From assembly GCF_024029775.1 (NCBI RefSeq), contig NZ_CP097122.1, positions 372,001 to 436,000 of the forward strand: a DNA stretch of 64,000 nt. The letters are read 5' to 3'. Numbering within the stretch: position 1 is the stretch's first letter; every line of letters begins with the position of its first letter. Below the pieces are notes generated by a model. The model searched no databases, had not been told where the DNA came from, and saw nothing but the letters and a program-made list of their open reading frames with translations. Shown in pieces: positions 1 to 53,113 of the stretch. Both the position numbers and the translations under genes were made by a program. Origin of the DNA: Fructobacillus americanaquae. Lineage in GTDB: Bacteria > Bacillota > Bacilli > Lactobacillales > Lactobacillaceae.

Positions 1-450
1 TGATAAACCAGCCACAGAAGGGACGAATGTTCGCACGATTGGAATATAGCGGCCTAAGATGATGGCCATCGCGCCTCGCTTCGCAAAGAATTGCTCAGCT
101 TCTTCAATATATTTAGGCTTAATCATAATTGAAAACGGCCGGTGATTTAACAACTCGCGCCCGCCAGTTCGTAGAATCCAATAATTCATTGAATCACCGA
201 CAACAGAGGCAATAAAGAAAACCACCATAAAAACCCAATGATTCAAACCGGCTTCTTGGCCAGCTGGTGTCATTGAAATGGCACCAGCAGCAAACAACAG
301 TGAATCACCTGGTAGAAATGGCAAAACCACTGCCCCAGTTTCAATCAAAACAATCACAAATAAAATCAAATAGGTCCAGATACCAAAGTGGGAAACCAAG
401 TTTGCCAGGTGGACATCAATGTGCAAGGTAAAATCAATTATGCTACTCAT
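1..450 (-). CDS. DedA family membrane protein (partial, runs off left edge)
   Basis: The first 150 codons of a minus-strand gene are present with no stop; the 3' end lies beyond base 1. The start ATG (448-450) is preceded by GGAGAA. Residues around 40-50 read ETGAVVLPFLPGDSLLF, the conserved DedA/SNARE-associated re-entrant signature, followed by hydrophobic helices and by GRYIPIVRTFVPSVAG near the break, also typical of the family. DedA proteins are polytopic membrane proteins, several of which flip undecaprenyl phosphate or phospholipids; the substrate here cannot be told from sequence. No operon partner is visible on the right; the next gene, a permease, ends 217 bases away. Confidence 0.9.
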   Translation of the reverse strand, partial: MSSIIDFTLHIDVHLANLVSHFGIWTYLILFVIVLIETGAVVLPFLPGDSLLFAAGAISMTPAGQEAGLNHWVFMVVFFIASVVGDSMNYWILRTGGRELLNHRPFSIMIKPKYIEEAEQFFAKRGAMAIILGRYIPIVRTFVPSVAGLS

Positions 451-11284: not shown

Positions 11285-11322
11285 CAAAAAGGCCCCGAAA
11301 TTTCAAATTTTCGGGGCCTTTT
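11285..11322. terminator. bidirectional terminator
   Basis: GGCCCCGAAA-tttcaaat-TTTCGGGGCC with flanking A5 and T4 between two convergent genes; it can end the aSec operon as well as the SDR gene. Confidence 0.9.
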
Positions 11323-11359
11323 CAGCGTTCACAACATGCTCATGGTTATCATTATAGGA

Positions 11360-12955
11360 TTAAGTTCGATTTCTAGTGAAAAAGCCCCGAAGCTGTTTCT
11401 GGCGGTGACCTTCAGCACTAGCATCTCGTTCTTGCGTATTCGTTTGCTCTGACTCCAAAGGTTCTTTTGCGCTCGTTGAATCTAATTCTACAGATTCTTC
11501 TAAGTAATTTTTATCTGGTTCTGGTGTTGCAGTGGTCCCCTCAACAGCCTGGGTTGTTTTTCCCTGAGCCGAATCAATTAATGGCAAAGCATCTGGTGAC
11601 TCTGACAATTTGTCAACTACCTGATTTTGATTCACCGCAACCCCTAACTGAGATAGTACAGATTCTTGCCGATCTTGCGTCAATGGGGGTAAATCACTCG
11701 GCACTAAAACTGGTCCTAATGGTGGCAAAGGTTGATCAGGTGCGACGTCTTGATTGGTAGCAGTGACGAACAGACTTTTTTCACCAGCAACTTTCTCTGG
11801 GTGCTGCTGGCCATCTGAATTACTGTCTTGCTTTTTGTTCATTGACGAATCACGGTTGACCTCACCGCCCCGAATTTGCTTTTTTTGCGTCTGCTCATCT
11901 TTTTTACGTTGCTTTTCTTCCTCACGGGCTGCTCGAATCCGTTTCAGCTTTTCCTGCCGACTTTCTGGCCATTCAGGATAAGCTAATTGCTGCAGAAGTT
12001 CTGTCTGAGAGCGGATAACCTGGATGGGACTAGCACTTTTCGCCAAAGAGTAGTGAACCAATAAACTGTCATTGGCATCCAGCAATCTTTCAATTTGTTC
12101 TGGTAGTGAGGACAAAAAGTCCGATAAATCAGTTGAATACCGGTCGATCCCTGCTGGCAAAACAAGCTGGTCGGGATTGGCAACAATTGCTTTTGCCCCT
12201 TTCACGGCCTGCCGGTATTGCAATGCCACCATGGAGGAAACCAAACCATAGCCAACAAATTCAACGTCCTTAGCACGAGCTTGCTTTTTGGCTTGATTGA
12301 TCACTTTCAAGACTTCTTCATTATAAAAATCTTGGCAATGAAGCAAATCAGTCGCAAGGTACAAAACTGCCTGCGGTGATTTTTTCACCGCGTGAATTGG
12401 ATAAGCTGTTTGACGAAATTCTGGTTCCGAAAGAATCACTCGCAAGGTTTTACTAGCCAACTGATTTGGCATATCCAGATACGCCCCGAGGAATTCGGTA
12501 ATTTGCTGGTCCTGGTCGAAAAGCCAGCCAGCCACTTTTTCCGCCACCGTTACCTCATAAAAAGTAAAATCACCCGTCCCAGCCGACATTAAGTCTAATC
12601 GGTAGTGATCATAAATCCTTGGAACCTTTAAATCCAAAAAGTCGCCGTTTTGGTACTGGCTACTGATAACTTGATCCTTTTCGTCAAAAAAAGTCCAGTT
12701 CAAGTAGGCGTGCATTCGTTTGGAATTTTGCACCCGCCGAGTGGTTTGATAAATGCGACCTGGCTTCAATCGGGGTAAATCAGAAAAAGACTTATCCTGA
12801 TAATAATTCGCTGCATCCGTCCATGAGGCAATGACTTGGCCAGAAGGCAAAAAGTGGTTCGTATAATGAACCTCATCCTCCTTGATAAAGTCAACAATTG
12901 CTCCCTGCAATTCATGAAGGGCCGTTTGCGGTTGCCAATAAATTTGATATTGCAT
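11360..12955 (-). CDS. asp3: accessory Sec protein Asp3-like, enlarged, with degenerate hydrolase-like domain
   Basis: 531 residues, far longer than usual Asp3 proteins (about 150-300). Residues 1-150 (MQYQIYWQPQTALHELQG start, FFDEKDQVI, then a TFYEVTVAEK strand) match the Asp3 beta-rich domain. Residues about 150-330 contain VEFVGYGLVSSMVALQYR, which aligns with LILAGYSMGSYAAMYYAG of the neighbouring Asp2, but the nucleophile Ser is replaced by Gly, so it looks like a catalytically dead copy of the hydrolase fold. Residues about 340-531 are charged, Q/E/K-rich and probably disordered, with the start of a coiled coil (KRIRAAREEEKQRKKDEQ). It has no signal peptide, so it is cytoplasmic. Its ATG overlaps the asp2 stop by one base. 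In streptococci Asp3 bridges Asp1 and Asp2. Confidence 0.75.
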   Translation of the reverse strand: MQYQIYWQPQTALHELQGAIVDFIKEDEVHYTNHFLPSGQVIASWTDAANYYQDKSFSDLPRLKPGRIYQTTRRVQNSKRMHAYLNWTFFDEKDQVISSQYQNGDFLDLKVPRIYDHYRLDLMSAGTGDFTFYEVTVAEKVAGWLFDQDQQITEFLGAYLDMPNQLASKTLRVILSEPEFRQTAYPIHAVKKSPQAVLYLATDLLHCQDFYNEEVLKVINQAKKQARAKDVEFVGYGLVSSMVALQYRQAVKGAKAIVANPDQLVLPAGIDRYSTDLSDFLSSLPEQIERLLDANDSLLVHYSLAKSASPIQVIRSQTELLQQLAYPEWPESRQEKLKRIRAAREEEKQRKKDEQTQKKQIRGGEVNRDSSMNKKQDSNSDGQQHPEKVAGEKSLFVTATNQDVAPDQPLPPLGPVLVPSDLPPLTQDRQESVLSQLGVAVNQNQVVDKLSESPDALPLIDSAQGKTTQAVEGTTATPEPDKNYLEESVELDSTSAKEPLESEQTNTQERDASAEGHRQKQLRGFFTRNRT

Positions 12956-14493
12956 TAACGCCAGCCCTCCTGTTTAATAACTTTGGCCTGTCGACCAATC
13001 TCTTTTTGCAAAAATTCAACCATCGCCTCTACTTGATCTTCATGATAACCGGGCATTTGCTCGCGATTAACGGCGACATGATGATGACGGAAATATTCCA
13101 ATAGTTTTGGTAATGATTCCCCATCATATTCGTCCTGAGTCGTCGTAAAGAGCGAAACCTCACCATTACGCCAAGTCAATTGATCCAACGAATGCCAGAG
13201 TTTTTGATTTAAACGTTCAGTATCCGATCGATCAAGCCGACCGGTTAACAAATAGCGAACATCTAAAATCCAATCATGGTTAACACCGCTATGAGCAAAG
13301 TCCCCCTTGGCAGTGAAGGTTCCCAAATTGATAATTGGCTTAGCCAACACCAAGTGATCAGCAGCAACCTGACCCGCATAGTACATTGCTGCGTAAGAAC
13401 CCATTGAATATCCAGCTAAAATCAGTTCGTCGTCTGTTACTCGCACTGCCTCTTGAGCGCTCCTGATTTTTTCCTTAATCAAGCCCTCGTATTCTTCATT
13501 GCCGACCATGAAAGCACCGCCTTGGGCTCTGGGATCCGTCAAAAGTAAGTATGGATAGCCCAAATCAGACAGTGGCCCCATCATCTCAAATCCTTCCACG
13601 TGAAGGCGAGTACCGACGAAGAGCACAACCAGTGGCCCCTTTTTAGTGCCCGGGTTAAAGTAAGAAAGAACTTCCTGCCCATCCTCAGTCATATCCCGAC
13701 TTCCACCAGGCAAAAAATACCCTAACCCGTGGCGAGACCGCCGTTGGTGCACATTATGCAGGTCCAGGGTTCCCTTGCCCTTGGCAAGCACGAGAATTTG
13801 ATAATCCTGGTACGAAGCTGGCGCCTTAATCGCCGTCAATCGCCGCATTGCAGGTCCTTGAATCATCTGTAATTGCTGTAAATGACCATTATGGTAAAAC
13901 ACAAAACACAATGCTAATTCAGCATCCCCAGTCTGTTCGTAATCACAGTAGACAAGGTTCTCTTGTTCTGGCTGATAGTCCCCTGGAAAGGTTTTCAACG
14001 TGCCAATTTGCTGGTAGTCAGCGCCAAAATCGCCATCAATCGCCGTCGAAAACCGCCCCGACCGCTTGAGCTGCCAACGATAATTTTTGACCGGCAAAAA
14101 TTGCGTTTCAGAGAAACGAGTTGGAAAACCAGCTTGTCCCAAATATAAATCACGAATAATTCGATCAGCCACCTCTGCTGGCTTTTTTTCCTGAAAATAA
14201 AATGCACCACGATCATCTAGCGCCTGCTGCAACTCCCGGTTGAAGCCAACGGTATTTCCCAAATAAATAACTCGATAAGCCGGCCACTCCCTGATTTGAC
14301 GAGACAAAACAGTCGAATCAATCACGAAATCGGTCAACAAAACATATGTATAAGCTAAAAAACTGGGATCTTGTTGTCGAGCCAACAAGAAAGGTAAGTC
14401 CAAGCTAGTAGTATAATGCCAGTCCAAATTTTCGTTTTGAACTTGGTCGGTCCAATCCACTTCTCCAATTTGTAAAATTGACATCTGGGCCAT
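12955..14493 (-). CDS. asp2: accessory Sec protein Asp2 (acetyltransferase/chaperone)
   Basis: 512 residues with N-terminal SILQIGEVDW, as in Asp2 proteins, a beta-rich middle, and a C-terminal alpha/beta hydrolase domain. The nucleophile elbow GYSMGS puts Ser at about 363, FTTTQDEYD supplies the acidic residue, and MPGYHEDQ places His at about 484; this agrees with the triad described for streptococcal Asp2, which O-acetylates GlcNAc on serine-rich adhesins. All three residues are present, so the enzyme is probably active. GTG at 14496 is open, but ATG 14493 is chosen since it lies six bases from AAGGAGG. It acts in the cytoplasm with Asp1 and Asp3. Confidence 0.88.
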   Translation of the reverse strand: MAQMSILQIGEVDWTDQVQNENLDWHYTTSLDLPFLLARQQDPSFLAYTYVLLTDFVIDSTVLSRQIREWPAYRVIYLGNTVGFNRELQQALDDRGAFYFQEKKPAEVADRIIRDLYLGQAGFPTRFSETQFLPVKNYRWQLKRSGRFSTAIDGDFGADYQQIGTLKTFPGDYQPEQENLVYCDYEQTGDAELALCFVFYHNGHLQQLQMIQGPAMRRLTAIKAPASYQDYQILVLAKGKGTLDLHNVHQRRSRHGLGYFLPGGSRDMTEDGQEVLSYFNPGTKKGPLVVLFVGTRLHVEGFEMMGPLSDLGYPYLLLTDPRAQGGAFMVGNEEYEGLIKEKIRSAQEAVRVTDDELILAGYSMGSYAAMYYAGQVAADHLVLAKPIINLGTFTAKGDFAHSGVNHDWILDVRYLLTGRLDRSDTERLNQKLWHSLDQLTWRNGEVSLFTTTQDEYDGESLPKLLEYFRHHHVAVNREQMPGYHEDQVEAMVEFLQKEIGRQAKVIKQEGWR

Positions 14494-14523
14494 CACGGTC
14501 CTCCTTCAAAAGTTATTCAATAG

Positions 14524-14604
14524 TTAGTTGTCCTTCATCGCATCAGCCAAGCTATTCCCGTTTAACTCAATTACCTTCTGACGGCTAACTTTTTGTTTAA
14601 AATC
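14524..14604 (-). other. +1-frame coding-like tail after asp1
   Basis: Directly after the asp1 TGA the +1 frame stays open for 26 codons: DFKQKVSRQKVIELNGNSLA then DAMKDN and TAA. The composition looks coding. It may be a lost or programmed C-terminal extension of Asp1, or a separate microprotein starting at an upstream TTG. No clear Shine-Dalgarno site precedes that TTG. Confidence 0.4.
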
Positions 14605-16036
14605 AGCGTAACTCAACCCGCCATTTAGCAGCTAAAGCGTCACTGGCATAGTCCGATTGAATCTTTAGCAAAGAATCCTGAACTCCCTGCCAATTTTGTT
14701 GATCCAAGAGCCAATTCAAACTCGTCACAATATCACTAACACTTTGAACGTGCTTTGTCTCTGGTGCCTGGTAGGCCGTTTGGGTTTTGGTCAGAGAAGG
14801 CAGCCCGTATGCCAAGGCTTGTGCTTGTAGCGACAAATCGACCTCATCGGCGAGATCAATCACGACCGATGCGGTTTGCAGATACTCCTGTCGCTTTTGA
14901 GGTGTCTGCCAATCAACTAGAACAAACTGAGCAGGCAACGTCTCTAACCGTTCGGGGGACAAAGTTTGGCTCTGCGCCAACTGACCTAATTTTGCGGTTA
15001 GCAATTGCTGAAAGCCAACCTGCCACATATCATTTTCAACAATAATCACCAAATCATCATGCTCAATCGCCAAGTCAAAAAGTGTGGTAAAGATATGGTT
15101 GGCATAATCAACTGAAAGCAAACCCAAGCGCCAATAGCAAACAAAGTGCTTCTTTGGTACAGCATTTTTAGTCGCCAAATCAACAGCAAAGGGTCCCAAA
15201 ACAAGCGGTTGGTGAACTAGGTTGAAAGCAGATGAAAGTGGCACTTGCCCCGTGACAGTTTCAAAAGACAACAGATCGTTTGGACCCAATTTTTGGCTAG
15301 TTTCAGCCCCGTAAAATGGATAGTCCAAGACTAAGACCCGCTGATTTCCTTTGATTTGCTGAGCAATGGCTAAATTTTTTACCGAAGGTTCGACCAGGAG
15401 GGTTTGGTCTGACAGCGATTGGAGATGCAAAACCACCAGTGATTCAATCAAGACCCCCATTTCAGTAAAAGTTTGCTCAGAACCGTCCGGTAACAGCGCC
15501 TTCACTTGACCGGTCTGACAGTCCTCTTTTGCAACAACCGCGCCACTTTGGCTAAGATAGTCAATCGTCTGCAATGATTCTTCTTGGTAGGTCAATACCC
15601 GTGAAACAAAGCCCCGATCATCAATCGTCAGTTGTTGCTCAAGTTGACCATTTTTCAGCAAATCAATGCGATCAATCAAATCTGCTTTGGGATAAGTAAA
15701 ATAGATTGTCGCATAGTGGACTAAGTCAACCAAGACCACGATTCGGTCATACATGCGAACAAATTCAGCATTTTTTGGCCAAGTAAAATCAGTTAAATCA
15801 AGTGGCTGACGATCCTTTTGCGTTACTTGTTGCAATTCGTCATAGGCTGACCAATATTGAATGGCTTCAATCTGCGCCTGACCCAGCCAGGTTCTCAACC
15901 GTGGCAAGTAATTGGCAAAAATAACCGTCACCTGGTCTTCGGCACGCAAAAAGAGCTTGGTCAAAGCCAGACTACTATCAACTTCGTTTTTTGAGTTCGA
16001 ATTTTCTTGCCAGGTGGGCAATAAGAATATGTTCAA
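14603..16036 (-). CDS. asp1: accessory Sec protein Asp1
   Basis: 477 residues. The start MNIFLLPTWQENSNSKNEVD corresponds to the FIP-W N-terminus of Asp1 proteins, which have a GT-B-like fold without catalytic activity and help hand the adhesin to SecA2. The sequence is diverged, with a C-terminal part resembling a glycosyltransferase second domain (VIIVENDMWQVGFQQLL, FVLVDWQTPQKRQEYLQ, then ALAYGLPSLTKTQT). The start codon is TTG with GGAGAG seven bases ahead. It sits 22 bases after the gtfB-like stop. Assignment rests on order, N-terminus and size; Asp1 is poorly conserved. Confidence 0.8.
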   Translation of the reverse strand: MNIFLLPTWQENSNSKNEVDSSLALTKLFLRAEDQVTVIFANYLPRLRTWLGQAQIEAIQYWSAYDELQQVTQKDRQPLDLTDFTWPKNAEFVRMYDRIVVLVDLVHYATIYFTYPKADLIDRIDLLKNGQLEQQLTIDDRGFVSRVLTYQEESLQTIDYLSQSGAVVAKEDCQTGQVKALLPDGSEQTFTEMGVLIESLVVLHLQSLSDQTLLVEPSVKNLAIAQQIKGNQRVLVLDYPFYGAETSQKLGPNDLLSFETVTGQVPLSSAFNLVHQPLVLGPFAVDLATKNAVPKKHFVCYWRLGLLSVDYANHIFTTLFDLAIEHDDLVIIVENDMWQVGFQQLLTAKLGQLAQSQTLSPERLETLPAQFVLVDWQTPQKRQEYLQTASVVIDLADEVDLSLQAQALAYGLPSLTKTQTAYQAPETKHVQSVSDIVTSLNWLLDQQNWQGVQDSLLKIQSDYASDALAAKWRVELR

Positions 16037-16057
16037 GGTTTCTCTCCTTTATCAACC

Positions 16058-16891
16058 TCAAGCGAACAGTTCAACCTTATCTAAGGGAAGTCCCGCCTTC
16101 TTTAGTTTTTCGTGGTCACTTTTTGCCACCAATACACGGCTAACACCATATTTTTGTTTCGTTAAGACCATGACCAAATCAGGCCAGACATTTCCCTGTT
16201 CATCCAAAACACCCTGTGGCAGGGCCAGAGTTGACCCCGTTGGTGCTAAAACTAAACAACGGTCAACTGTACTAATTTGGACATCGCAGTGTCCCTGCTT
16301 TGCTATCACATGTTCCAAGTAATTCTCGGCAGAATCATAGTGGCGCTGCCTTTGATCAAGAACAAAGTTGCGCATCCCTTGAAAATAAAAGTCTTGGCAA
16401 ACCAGCTGATCAAAGCCAACGTAAAAATCAGATTGAAGCAGTTGGCCATTACTAAAATATTGTTTGGCGAACAAACGGCCATTGCGTTGATAAATGTCTT
16501 TACGCTCGACTTGACCACCTGCGTTCTGCCAAGTCACGGCCTGCACGAGGCGGTTAGAATTGGCGAACCAGCGTACGTCCGCCACCAAGTGTCCAGCCAC
16601 GGAAATACTCTTCGTCCAATCCTGATTGACAACCAATTGACCCTGGTTAGGAACTTTTAAATCATAAAACCAGAGTCCCTCACCAGCTACTTGATCGGCC
16701 AAATAACTTTGACTACAAAGGTCAAAAACTTGGTGTAATTCTAAGCCAAGATCACGGGCAATTTGAACAGCATCTTCATGTGGGGTTGCCAGCCAAAGTT
16801 CATCCAACTCACCAGCCAGCACTTGATTAATTTGCCAAGCAACTGCCTGCTGGTTTCTTTCATCAAAACTATTAATTAGTGCAACTTTCAT
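16058..16891 (-). CDS. short GtfB-like protein (adhesin glycosyltransferase chaperone)
   Basis: 277 residues versus about 440-450 for GtfB. VPNQGQLVVNQDWTKSISVA, the DIYQRNGRLFAKQYFSNGQL repeat-like beta strands and SDFYVGFDQLVCQDFYFQG match the beta-meander insertion of GtfB that binds the acceptor polypeptide. The C-terminal GT-B domain of normal GtfB is missing; the frame stops cleanly and asp1 begins 22 bases later. GtfB with GtfA adds the first GlcNAc to serine-rich adhesins. Its ATG overlaps the gtfA-like stop (ATGA), supporting complex formation. Confidence 0.75.
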   Translation of the reverse strand: MKVALINSFDERNQQAVAWQINQVLAGELDELWLATPHEDAVQIARDLGLELHQVFDLCSQSYLADQVAGEGLWFYDLKVPNQGQLVVNQDWTKSISVAGHLVADVRWFANSNRLVQAVTWQNAGGQVERKDIYQRNGRLFAKQYFSNGQLLQSDFYVGFDQLVCQDFYFQGMRNFVLDQRQRHYDSAENYLEHVIAKQGHCDVQISTVDRCLVLAPTGSTLALPQGVLDEQGNVWPDLVMVLTKQKYGVSRVLVAKSDHEKLKKAGLPLDKVELFA

Positions 16892-18360
16892 GCTAGTTCA
16901 TCCTCCAATTCCACCCATTTTTCAGTAACCTTTTCTGTCAAAAATGGCCGGCAAGAAGCGATTGCACCAGCTGAAAGCCGATCGTAATCTTGGAAACAAG
17001 ATAAAATAGCCTCCGCAAGCTGGACCACATTGTTGTTACGATCAGCATCGGTTGTTAAAAAATCAGCCAAATAACCATTTTCACCGGGATGGATCAATTC
17101 CTTAGCGCCAAAGTTATTTGCATAACTAGCAACTGGGAGGCCCTGACTTAATGCTTCCAGATAAGTCAAGCCAAATCCCTCAGAGTATGACGCGGAAACA
17201 AAAACATCATAACGCTGCAAATCCTTTGTCACATTCTGAGATAAACCAGCTAAGACAACGCGATTAGTCAAACCAAGATCCTTAATTTGCTTGGCTAATT
17301 TTTTCTGCTCGGCCCCGGCACCATAGATAGTCAAATTGACGTCATGACCACGTGCCACTAAAACGTGAACAGCATCAATAATTTGGTCAATGTGCTTTTC
17401 TTCATGCAAACGCGAGGCTGTCACCAAATTTAGTTTTTGATTCTTCCTGGTCTTTTTTTGGCCAAGATTCGTTACCCCACCAACGGGAATGGCATCTATC
17501 TTATCGAGGTTTTTCGCTGCGGTATAACCTTGCAAATCACTCTTTAGAGCCTCTTTTTGTGCCTTGGTTGCCACAACAACCGCATCATACTGGTCCAAAT
17601 GATCCAATGTGTACTGATAAAAATTATTAAAAAGAATGTGCCCGTTCTCTTCACTAACCTTGTGGTTAGCATGAACCATGCCAACAATTTTCTGCGTCGA
17701 ACCCGCTACTTTTTGTCGGACCAGGGCTTCATCATAGAATGTTCCCCGATCAATAAAATACGTATTTTGTCCAAAATGTACTTCAAGTTGATTTAAGAAA
17801 AAAGTCACTAACTCGTCAAAAGTCAAGAAATAGTAATTTTCCCCTAAGAAATTCGTCAGATGAATGTCCTGCATGATTTTTTCACCTGGCCCCTGTCGAT
17901 ACGACCACTCGACCTGATGTGTCCCCTTCGTCAAGGAAACATAAGCATCATCAACAATATAGATATTTTTTTCTGTATTAAAAATCTTATCGCGTAAACG
18001 ACGAATTTGGTAATTACCGGAACTTTGAGTCGTAATCATGCGCTGCGTATCGGTTTGATCAATTAAAATCTTTTCGTGGCTCTTGTGCACTTCGTCAGCA
18101 GGCAAACCATGATCCAAGTAGTCAAAAGGGTCGGCAGCTAACAAAAAGTCATAAAGACCAATAACCTGATTTTCTGGTAAATGCCATTCACGCATATGAA
18201 CATGCAAATCTTGCAGTAAATCAGTAAAGACAATTTTGAATGGTAATTGTCCCTTTAAAAAGCATTGAGCCCGATAGAATTGAGCATGTTCAACGCCCGA
18301 ATTGCCGTGACCCATACCTTGGTTAAGAAAAAAATTCATAAAGACACATACTGCTTTCAT
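16888..18360 (-). CDS. GtfA-like glycosyltransferase of the accessory Sec locus
   Basis: 490 residues, family GT4. The N-terminal SGVEHAQFYRAQ matches the GtfA consensus SGVE-AQ-YR. The C-terminal Rossmann domain carries VTASRLHEEKHIDQIIDA, VVLAGLSQNVTKDL, the EGFGLTYLEALSQGLP E-x7-E motif and a GENGYLADF tail. In streptococci GtfA/GtfB transfers GlcNAc from UDP-GlcNAc to Ser/Thr in the cytoplasm before export by SecA2/SecY2. The start has no Shine-Dalgarno site at ATG 18360; an internal ATG eight codons later (MNFFLNQGMGHGNSG) is possible. It heads the five-gene operon, right after the pta terminator. Confidence 0.87.
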   Translation of the reverse strand: MKAVCVFMNFFLNQGMGHGNSGVEHAQFYRAQCFLKGQLPFKIVFTDLLQDLHVHMREWHLPENQVIGLYDFLLAADPFDYLDHGLPADEVHKSHEKILIDQTDTQRMITTQSSGNYQIRRLRDKIFNTEKNIYIVDDAYVSLTKGTHQVEWSYRQGPGEKIMQDIHLTNFLGENYYFLTFDELVTFFLNQLEVHFGQNTYFIDRGTFYDEALVRQKVAGSTQKIVGMVHANHKVSEENGHILFNNFYQYTLDHLDQYDAVVVATKAQKEALKSDLQGYTAAKNLDKIDAIPVGGVTNLGQKKTRKNQKLNLVTASRLHEEKHIDQIIDAVHVLVARGHDVNLTIYGAGAEQKKLAKQIKDLGLTNRVVLAGLSQNVTKDLQRYDVFVSASYSEGFGLTYLEALSQGLPVASYANNFGAKELIHPGENGYLADFLTTDADRNNNVVQLAEAILSCFQDYDRLSAGAIASCRPFLTEKVTEKWVELEDELA

Positions 18361-18385
18361 TCAGATTTTTGTTAAAATAATGGCA

Positions 18386-18419
18386 AGAAAGGGCTAACCA
18401 AGGACTCGGTTACCCCTTT
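18386..18419 (-). terminator. terminator after pta
   Basis: Minus strand AAAGGGGTAACC-gagtcctt-GGTTAGCCCTTT, one mismatch, then a T-rich stretch; separates pta from the glycosylation operon. Confidence 0.75.
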
Positions 18420-18430
18420 AATGCACTTAA

Positions 18431-51241: not shown

Positions 51242-53113
51242 CTAATGGTTATTGGACGAAGGTGATGAGGAGGAACTCGAGGACGAAGACGAAGAAGAGT
51301 TCGATGAATTATTATTCGAATCATTACTATTATTGTTGCTATTCGTACTATTTTCCTGGCCAGCAGAAATCGTCAAGGTTAGCGTTTTATCGGAAGTAAT
51401 CTGCGAACCAGCTGGTATATCTTGGGCAATTACCTGACCACTTGTTTGGCTAGAATTTGTAAAGTTAAAACTGAGCTGAATCCGGTTCGAATTTGCCCAG
51501 TTCATTGCATCACTTTGGTTCTTACCAACCAGGTTTGGCACTTGAACCTTACTTGGACCAGTTGAAACCGTTAAAGTGATTGTCGTTGAACTAGGATCAA
51601 CAGCGGTAAAGGCCGCAGCCGATTGGGAAATGACTTCCCCACTCGGAACATCAGAACTAGCTTGGCTTTTTCGCTTAACGGTGAAGCCTTGACCACTTAG
51701 CTGCGCCGCTGCTTCGCCATAGCTCCAACCACTATAGTCGGCTAGAGTGACCTTATTCGCACCAGAGGAAACCACCAAAGAAACGGAAGTTCCCTTTTTT
51801 AGGTAGGCGCCCGATCCAGGTTTCGTCTTCATCACTTGGCCACTAGTAACCGTCTTGGACGACGCATAAGTTGGACCGGACACCGTCAATCCAGCATCAG
51901 AAAGCTTGCTTTCAGCTTGGTTTACAGACATATTGGTGACATCCGGCATAGTGACATAGTTATTTTTAAAATAACTTGCCCCACCAAAGCTAGCCAACAA
52001 CAAGACTAGCATTACTAAGGAAACAACCCACTTTTTGGCCGACTTGTACTTAACACCATTTTTGGACAAAACCTGACGAACAAACTTTGGCATCCGATCA
52101 ACTTGCATGGCAATTTCTTTGATCGACATTCCCTGCTTAGCATAATCAATAATTTGATCAGTGACCGATTTTCCTTCTTCGGGATCTTTTAAAATATCAG
52201 GGTCAGCCACATAGGGGCGATCTGCTAAATCAGTATCAACTAAACGCGTCTCATCAGAGGTTTCTGGCACGTACCGACTCTCTTTGGAGCGTCTTTTCGA
52301 CAACGAAGTTTTAAGGTCAGCGGCCATATCTTCAGCCGAAAAATAGCGGTCTACTGGATTTTTAGCAGTTGCCCGCAAAATAACATTTTCTAATGGCTGG
52401 GGAACCTGGCTATCAAAATCGCGCACAAAAGGCATTGGCATGTTCCCATGCTTATAAGCCACTTGTTCTGGCGTATCACCTTGATAAGGCACTTGGTTCG
52501 TCAACAGTTCATACAAAATAACACCCAGCGCATAAATATCGGACTGGGCAGAGGCATGCTGACCGATGGGCAGTTCCGGCGCCAGGTAATGAATTGAGCC
52601 GATCACCGTGTGTACCTGAGTCAACGACTCTGATTTTTTGGCCGTTGCAATCCCAAAATCGGTAATCTTCACTTGCCCTTGTCGATCAATCAAGATGTTT
52701 TGTGGTTTCAAATCACGATGAATAATACCAGCACGATGGGCAGCTGCCACTGCATCCAAGATTTGTTCCATGATATCAACAACCTTGTGATAAGGGATTG
52801 GAAAATGCGCCTGCGTGTAATCCTTCAAATCCATCCCATCGACATATTCCATCACCAAATAAGAAGAGCCATCAAACTCACCGGCATCATAAACCTGGAC
52901 AATATGGTCGTTGACCAAAGCTGTTGCTGCTTTTGCCTCACGTTGAAAGCGTTCAACAGCGTCTGGTTGGTCCTTGATGTCCAATCGAATCATCTTCAAC
53001 GTAACATCACGGTTTAAATAAGTGTCAAAAGCTTGGTAGACATTGGCCATGCCACCACCACCCAGAGGGTGCACTACACGGTAGCGGTGATCAATCATCG
53101 TTCCTTGTTCCAT
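51242..53113 (-). CDS. pknB: PASTA-domain serine/threonine kinase
   Basis: 623 residues. Kinase domain 1-270: GGGGMANVYQAFD, the invariant Lys in VTLKMIRL, HRDLKPQNILID, ITDFGIATA. Juxtamembrane region, one membrane helix (WVVSLVMLVLLLASFGGASY, about 365-385), and three extracellular PASTA domains (about 393-590). The C-terminus is a Ser/Asn tract with more than ten consecutive Ser, probably surface exposed. Senses muropeptides or lipid II and phosphorylates division and wall proteins. Overlaps stp by one base. Confidence 0.95.
   Translation of the reverse strand: MEQGTMIDHRYRVVHPLGGGGMANVYQAFDTYLNRDVTLKMIRLDIKDQPDAVERFQREAKAATALVNDHIVQVYDAGEFDGSSYLVMEYVDGMDLKDYTQAHFPIPYHKVVDIMEQILDAVAAAHRAGIIHRDLKPQNILIDRQGQVKITDFGIATAKKSESLTQVHTVIGSIHYLAPELPIGQHASAQSDIYALGVILYELLTNQVPYQGDTPEQVAYKHGNMPMPFVRDFDSQVPQPLENVILRATAKNPVDRYFSAEDMAADLKTSLSKRRSKESRYVPETSDETRLVDTDLADRPYVADPDILKDPEEGKSVTDQIIDYAKQGMSIKEIAMQVDRMPKFVRQVLSKNGVKYKSAKKWVVSLVMLVLLLASFGGASYFKNNYVTMPDVTNMSVNQAESKLSDAGLTVSGPTYASSKTVTSGQVMKTKPGSGAYLKKGTSVSLVVSSGANKVTLADYSGWSYGEAAAQLSGQGFTVKRKSQASSDVPSGEVISQSAAAFTAVDPSSTTITLTVSTGPSKVQVPNLVGKNQSDAMNWANSNRIQLSFNFTNSSQTSGQVIAQDIPAGSQITSDKTLTLTISAGQENSTNSNNNSNDSNNNSSNSSSSSSSSSSSSPSSNNH

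Follow-up and report, generated by a model that had tools for sequence, protein, structure and literature searches.

In Streptococcus gordonii, GtfA and GtfB add GlcNAc in the cytosol, and Asp1, Asp2 and Asp3 (Asp1-3) help SecA2 to engage the pre-protein (PMC5578698). Acetylation of GlcNAc by Asp2 takes place only during transport through the accessory Sec (aSec) system, and the general Sec machinery of this species exports GlcNAc-glycosylated GspB in un-acetylated form (PMC5578698). In L. plantarum, HexNAc is added to Acm2 and other proteins within the cell, before secretion, by Gtf1 and Gtf2, which resemble the initiating SRRP pathway (PMC5796085). The staphylococcal enzymes SdgA and SdgB are GtfA-like GT4 enzymes for SD-repeat adhesins. 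We know of no Asp1-3 in the SdgA/SdgB system.

The most plausible place for the five-gene set studied here is between the S. gordonii and L. plantarum systems, with Gtf and Asp proteins and without SecA2/SecY2. It has in common with the aSec systems of S. gordonii, S. agalactiae and L. reuteri the homologues of GtfA, Asp1, Asp2 and Asp3, the residues of the Asp2 triad and, in some members, KxYKxGKxW-type Ser-rich surface proteins. It differs from those systems in that 21 of 26 carrier genomes have no SecA2 reaching the cut-off and 20 have neither SecA2 nor SecY2; in addition, it forms a separate Asp2 clade, its Asp3 ends in a characteristic tip, it occupies a fixed core locus, and no adhesin gene is part of the locus analysed. 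A GtfA/GtfB-like pair is shared with L. plantarum, whose system is described in a review as two Gtf proteins, whereas Asp1-3 are conserved alongside the pair here (PMC5796085). A search of the open-access literature, which was not exhaustive, found no published report of a Gtf-Asp locus without SecA2/SecY2. The portions consulted of a 2026 paper on the giant surface proteins of fructophilic bacteria mention the SecA2-SecY2 system and not these Gtf-Asp genes.

The window, that is, the whole stretch of 64,000 nucleotides of Fructobacillus americanaquae that was analysed, carries on its minus strand, at 11360-18360, five ORFs in the order gtfA, gtfB-like, asp1, asp2 and asp3, all where the preliminary description had placed them. 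These are gtfA (16888..18360), encoding a GT4 O-GlcNAc transferase homologue of 490 aa; the gtfB-like gene (16058..16891), encoding a half-length GtfB of 277 aa with the first Rossmann domain and a beta-meander; asp1 (14603..16036; 477 aa); asp2 (12955..14496), encoding an alpha/beta-hydrolase-type protein of 513 aa; and asp3 (11360..12955; 531 aa). The locus had been called compact, with overlapping stops and starts, which holds for two of the four joints, gtfA/gtfB and asp2/asp3, but not for the others, where 21 bases precede asp1 and 106 bases separate asp1 from asp2. The terminators proposed on both sides were borne out by RNA folding. A terminator-like hairpin in the pta-gtfA interval marks the upstream edge of the unit (18361..18430, minus strand; -22.4 kcal/mol, z -3.8), and a bidirectional hairpin 3' of asp3 (~11286..11323, both strands; -24.4 kcal/mol, z -5.8 on the minus strand and -7.0 on the plus strand) also lies 3' of an SDR gene on the plus strand. 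As previously noted, neither secA2, secY2 nor an adhesin gene adjoins the locus.

The assignment of the products to the Gtf and Asp families is upheld by both profile and fold. Of the putative GtfA/GtfB priming pair, GtfA matches TIGR02918 (E=9.6e-65) with 219 bits, far below the equivalog cut-off of 575. Its best solved relatives are GtfA (5e9t_A, 1.2e-46; 4pqg_A, 3.9e-43), followed by SdgB (2e-30) and TarM (7e-19), and it retains the SRLHEEKHID stretch, aligned to solved GtfA, as well as the EX7E motif EGFGLTYLE. The GtfB-like member, with 277 aa compared to about 440 for GtfB, corresponds to the N-terminal half only and matches TIGR02919 at 2.5e-7 over residues 70-197 only. Its AlphaFold2 model (pLDDT 93.5), superposed with VIA-align along its full length (1..277), finds its best fold match in SdgB 1..303 (Z 21.9) and also covers 1..273 of the 447 residues of GtfB 5e9t_B (Z 20.3). 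Since the whole model spans just these portions, the protein is predicted to be without the second Rossmann domain. The half-length GtfB was considered as a hallmark of this branch and rejected, as it also occurs in the aSec-type loci L041, L042, L095 and L096. The GtfB model, like GtfA, matches TarM too, which would suit a TarM-like activity with teichoic acid or another wall polymer, rather than a protein, as the glycosyl acceptor. We consider this quite improbable, because GtfA matches solved GtfA and SdgB much better than TarM and lies beside Asp1-3 in 17 five-gene loci, in one case right behind a serine-rich-repeat gene.

Asp1 matches PF16993 (3.4e-25), the solved Asp1 5vae_A (6.3e-15) and TIGR03713 (1.2e-37), in the last case with 130 bits, slightly below the cut-off of 136. 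Asp2 matches PF16929 (8.5e-74) and, over the cut-off, TIGR03712 (8.4e-77), and its family profile matches 6oyc_B (2.2e-74) and 6lnw_B (9.7e-72). The Ser-Asp-His triad residues are present in the protein of the window, within the motifs GYSMG, DEYD and GYHE. In four members of the clade, namely ESL0958 (L032), L. rapi, L. fallax and L. miyukkimchii, the nucleophilic Ser is replaced.

Asp3 matches TIGR03711 (E=1.8e-29) over residues 3-136 of 531, and Pfam concurs for Asp1, Asp2 and Asp3. The streptococcal Asp3 in L098 has 174 aa, compared to the 531 aa found here, where an Asp3 fold (residues ~1-140) is followed by an alpha/beta domain (~150-300), a low-complexity linker and the tip LRGFFTRNR. 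The model of residues 1-347 (mean pLDDT 84) matches S. agalactiae Gap3 (6oyc_C, 310 aa; E=2.7e-18). The linker between the alpha/beta domain and the tip is highly variable in length among members. The tip, [LI]xx[FLW]F and usually basic, closes all 23 members with readable ends and none of eight aSec Asp3s, compared to 0.27 expected by shuffling, a count in which the 23 sequences are related and not independent. This conserved tip could serve as a docking peptide, with either the membrane or the general Sec machinery as its target.

The genome to which the window belongs consists of a single contig of 1.41 Mb, estimated to be 98% complete. Profile searches of this contig found housekeeping SecA and SecY only, and neither SecA2 nor SecY2. 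The single SecA exceeds the cut-off of the housekeeping SecA equivalog (1056 bits; cut-off 814) and stays below that of SecA2 (889 bits; cut-off 930). The single SecY likewise exceeds the cut-off of housekeeping SecY TIGR00967 (432 bits; cut-off 254) and stays below that of SecY2 (170 bits; cut-off 250). The preliminary description had left two alternatives, that the partners are encoded elsewhere or that a modified substrate is exported by housekeeping Sec. An ordinary split aSec locus, with secA2/secY2 and an adhesin gene elsewhere in the genome, would resemble Leuconostoc, which spreads these genes over two loci, and SecA2 is indeed present elsewhere in the genomes of some species. Given that the one-contig genome encodes only the housekeeping forms, we reject the split locus here as next to impossible, the residual chance being a SecA2 in the estimated 2% that is unassembled. 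The best remaining alternative is the second one, with a presumed housekeeping route for a substrate that would be glycosylated and acetylated.

The same gene order recurs in related genomes, and hence the arrangement is not due to chance. The nearest named relatives are other Fructobacillus species (the Asp2 of F. tropaeoli is 91% identical); Asp2 is present in 13 of 13 searched genomes of the genus, and in each of the 13 the five genes were directly observed at one locus, with pta and ung as neighbours. Two Convivina species and one further genome of the Lactobacillaceae (L114) have the five genes with pta adjoining. Ten Leuconostoc genomes carry asp1-asp2-asp3 alone, at a different fixed site, and in nine of them a pair of gtfA and short gtfB lies at a separate site, always followed by a phosphoglycerate kinase gene. 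L. fallax, the tenth, has no intact GtfA, only a broken aSec-type gtfA. L. pseudomesenteroides has the trio, the pair and a second, five-gene copy just downstream of a serine-rich-repeat gene, which reaches the contig end; one ORF of 215 aa lies between that gene and the five-gene copy. The locus belongs to the vertically inherited core of Fructobacillus, Convivina and Leuconostoc and is no isolated oddity, a point that the preliminary description did not anticipate. A mobile-element origin was rejected, since a search of viral contigs, reaching only fairly close relatives, found no relative of the locus and plasmid matches were all below 60% identity; among the plasmid matches listed, the annotated ones were aSec asp2. 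The reading as a defence system was likewise rejected, with zero PADLOC matches.

The locus or the trio is carried by 26 genomes, that of the window and 25 named ones, the latter being drafts or of unstated completeness. Five of the 26 encode a SecA2 scoring above the curated cut-off, namely L. rapi, L. holzapfelii, L. pseudomesenteroides, L. inhae and F. pseudoficulneus; for SecY2, the genomes above the cut-off are those of L. rapi, L. holzapfelii, L. pseudomesenteroides and L. fallax. L. inhae has SecY2 as fragments, the SecA2 of L. fallax is broken by stops, and the second SecY of F. pseudoficulneus scores 215 bits, below the SecY2 cut-off, and adjoins its secA2. In 20 of the 26 carriers, profile searches found neither protein. 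L. rapi, L. holzapfelii, L. pseudomesenteroides and L. inhae each encode SecA2 and a canonical GtfA near each other on one contig, and the SecA2 of F. pseudoficulneus sits in a separate aSec locus with asp and gtf genes of its own. This aSec locus of F. pseudoficulneus also has its own Ser-rich protein and exists beside the SecA2-independent locus (L035 and L164).

In a maximum-likelihood tree of 34 Asp2 sequences, the 23 from these loci are separated from 11 of SecA2/SecY2-linked loci by a split with support of 100/100. All 11 comparators have SecA2 or SecY2 genes adjoining; the tree is unrooted and compatible with a branch that has lost SecA2/SecY2 or that never had them. Relative to F. tropaeoli, dN/dS is 0.08-0.11 for all five genes, compared to 0.05 for pta and 0.07 for ung, values which indicate that the set is under strong purifying selection. 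Given the separate Asp2 clade and the low dN/dS, comparison at the sequence level marks the set as old and maintained, not as a relic. Some Asp2s have lost the nucleophile, and the aSec locus of L. fallax is decayed in the way that a relic left behind after the loss of secA2/secY2 might be, with stops in secA2 and a broken gtfA. For the present locus such decay is highly improbable, as all five genes are intact and constrained like their neighbours, synteny is fixed throughout the genus, and the set forms its own clade and coexists with the separate aSec locus of F. pseudoficulneus. In L. fallax (L176), asp1 of the decayed locus is split into two ORFs, and secY2 and asp2 are open.

Because most carriers have neither SecA2 nor SecY2, the Asp helpers probably serve the ordinary export machinery or act solely on sugars. 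We favour, with some confidence, a SecA2/SecY2-independent Gtf-Asp branch in which exported proteins are glycosylated and Asp1-3 take part in their hand-over to housekeeping Sec. We infer the sugar, its acetylation, the binding of candidate substrates, the route of export and the roles of Asp1-3 and the tip as follows. GtfA would place GlcNAc onto Ser/Thr-rich stretches of the pre-protein in the cytosol, aided by the half-length GtfB as an acceptor-binding partner. The Asp1-Asp2-Asp3 complex would then bind the glycosylated pre-protein, and Asp2 proteins with an intact triad may O-acetylate part of the sugar. The product would leave through housekeeping SecA/SecYEG, with the C-terminal tip of Asp3, on its linker of variable length, possibly docking to the membrane or the general Sec machinery. 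Since acetylation by the Asp2 of S. gordonii is confined to aSec export (PMC5578698), some other coupling would be needed for acetylation in the present system. The loss of the Asp2 nucleophile in four members, and the L. fallax trio without an intact GtfA, speak against the favoured reading.

A simpler possibility is a pure modification module, in which GtfA/GtfB and Asp1-3 act only on glycans, Asp1-3 stay outside export and housekeeping Sec works unaided. The export of GlcNAc-GspB by the general Sec of S. gordonii (PMC5578698) and the glycosylation of Acm2 and other proteins by L. plantarum Gtf1/Gtf2 (PMC5796085) are in line with it. We regard it as unlikely, since all three asp genes persist despite the loss of the nucleophile from four Asp2s, which favours a non-catalytic role, and the conservation of the Asp3 tip points to a docking partner. 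A hand-over role for Asp1-3 remains our preferred reading. More speculatively, Asp1-3 may not be dedicated SecA2/SecY2 parts at all but, in Leuconostoc, Fructobacillus and Convivina, a separate and long-standing system, in which the tip-docked Asp complex hands glycosylated pre-proteins to SecA/SecYEG; we put this forward tentatively and with more doubt than belief. The members of the clade, found in food and with insects, are a natural setting in which to examine what Asp1-3 do without SecA2/SecY2.

As regards candidate substrates, C. intestini encodes a serine-rich-repeat protein of 3671 aa, with a KxYKxGKxW signal and an LPNTG anchor of the LPXTG type; Ser/Thr-rich windows take up 2635 of its residues. 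In C. praedatoris a similar large serine-rich ORF runs off the contig end, and neither SecA2 nor SecY2 was found in these two Convivina genomes. F. tropaeoli has several Ser-rich surface ORFs. The linked case of L. pseudomesenteroides is not on its own a proof of independence, since SecA2 and SecY2 are also present there. Searches for dipeptide patterns found no serine-dipeptide array in the genome of the window and no array match in 9 of 13 Fructobacillus genomes, and hence serine-rich-repeat proteins are not the general substrate. The built-in control of the Ser pattern is uninformative, its reversed form being close to its own reverse complement, and in some Leuconostoc the counts, which take in simple repeats and other reading frames, were left out of the evidence for adhesins. 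For a reliable listing of wall-anchored proteins in these genomes, the LPXTG profile is too short.

Acceptors in the genome of the window were sought by patterns and profiles. An L-type-lectin adhesin with a KxYKxGKxW signal and a Ser/Thr-rich region (L178:340-4478) is broken across three reading frames. A secreted LysM-CAP protein whose linker is rich in Ala, Ser and Thr may be regarded as a candidate acceptor, by analogy with L. plantarum Acm2, in which a linker of this kind is glycosylated (PMC5796085). A compact signal peptide was considered as a possible mark of housekeeping export; the signal peptide of the aSec-linked protein of F. pseudoficulneus is compact as well. Elsewhere, the repeats of three very large KxYKxGKxW-type surface proteins of 4814, 3566 and 2287 aa (G000:C1:136493-150937, L085; 163877-174577, L087; 213760-220623, L088) abound in Ala, Asp, Gln and Asn, and these proteins are without a serine array. 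Within the window, at 51242-53113, an ORF of 623 aa combines a kinase-like N-terminus with a low-complexity stretch rich in Ser and Asn.
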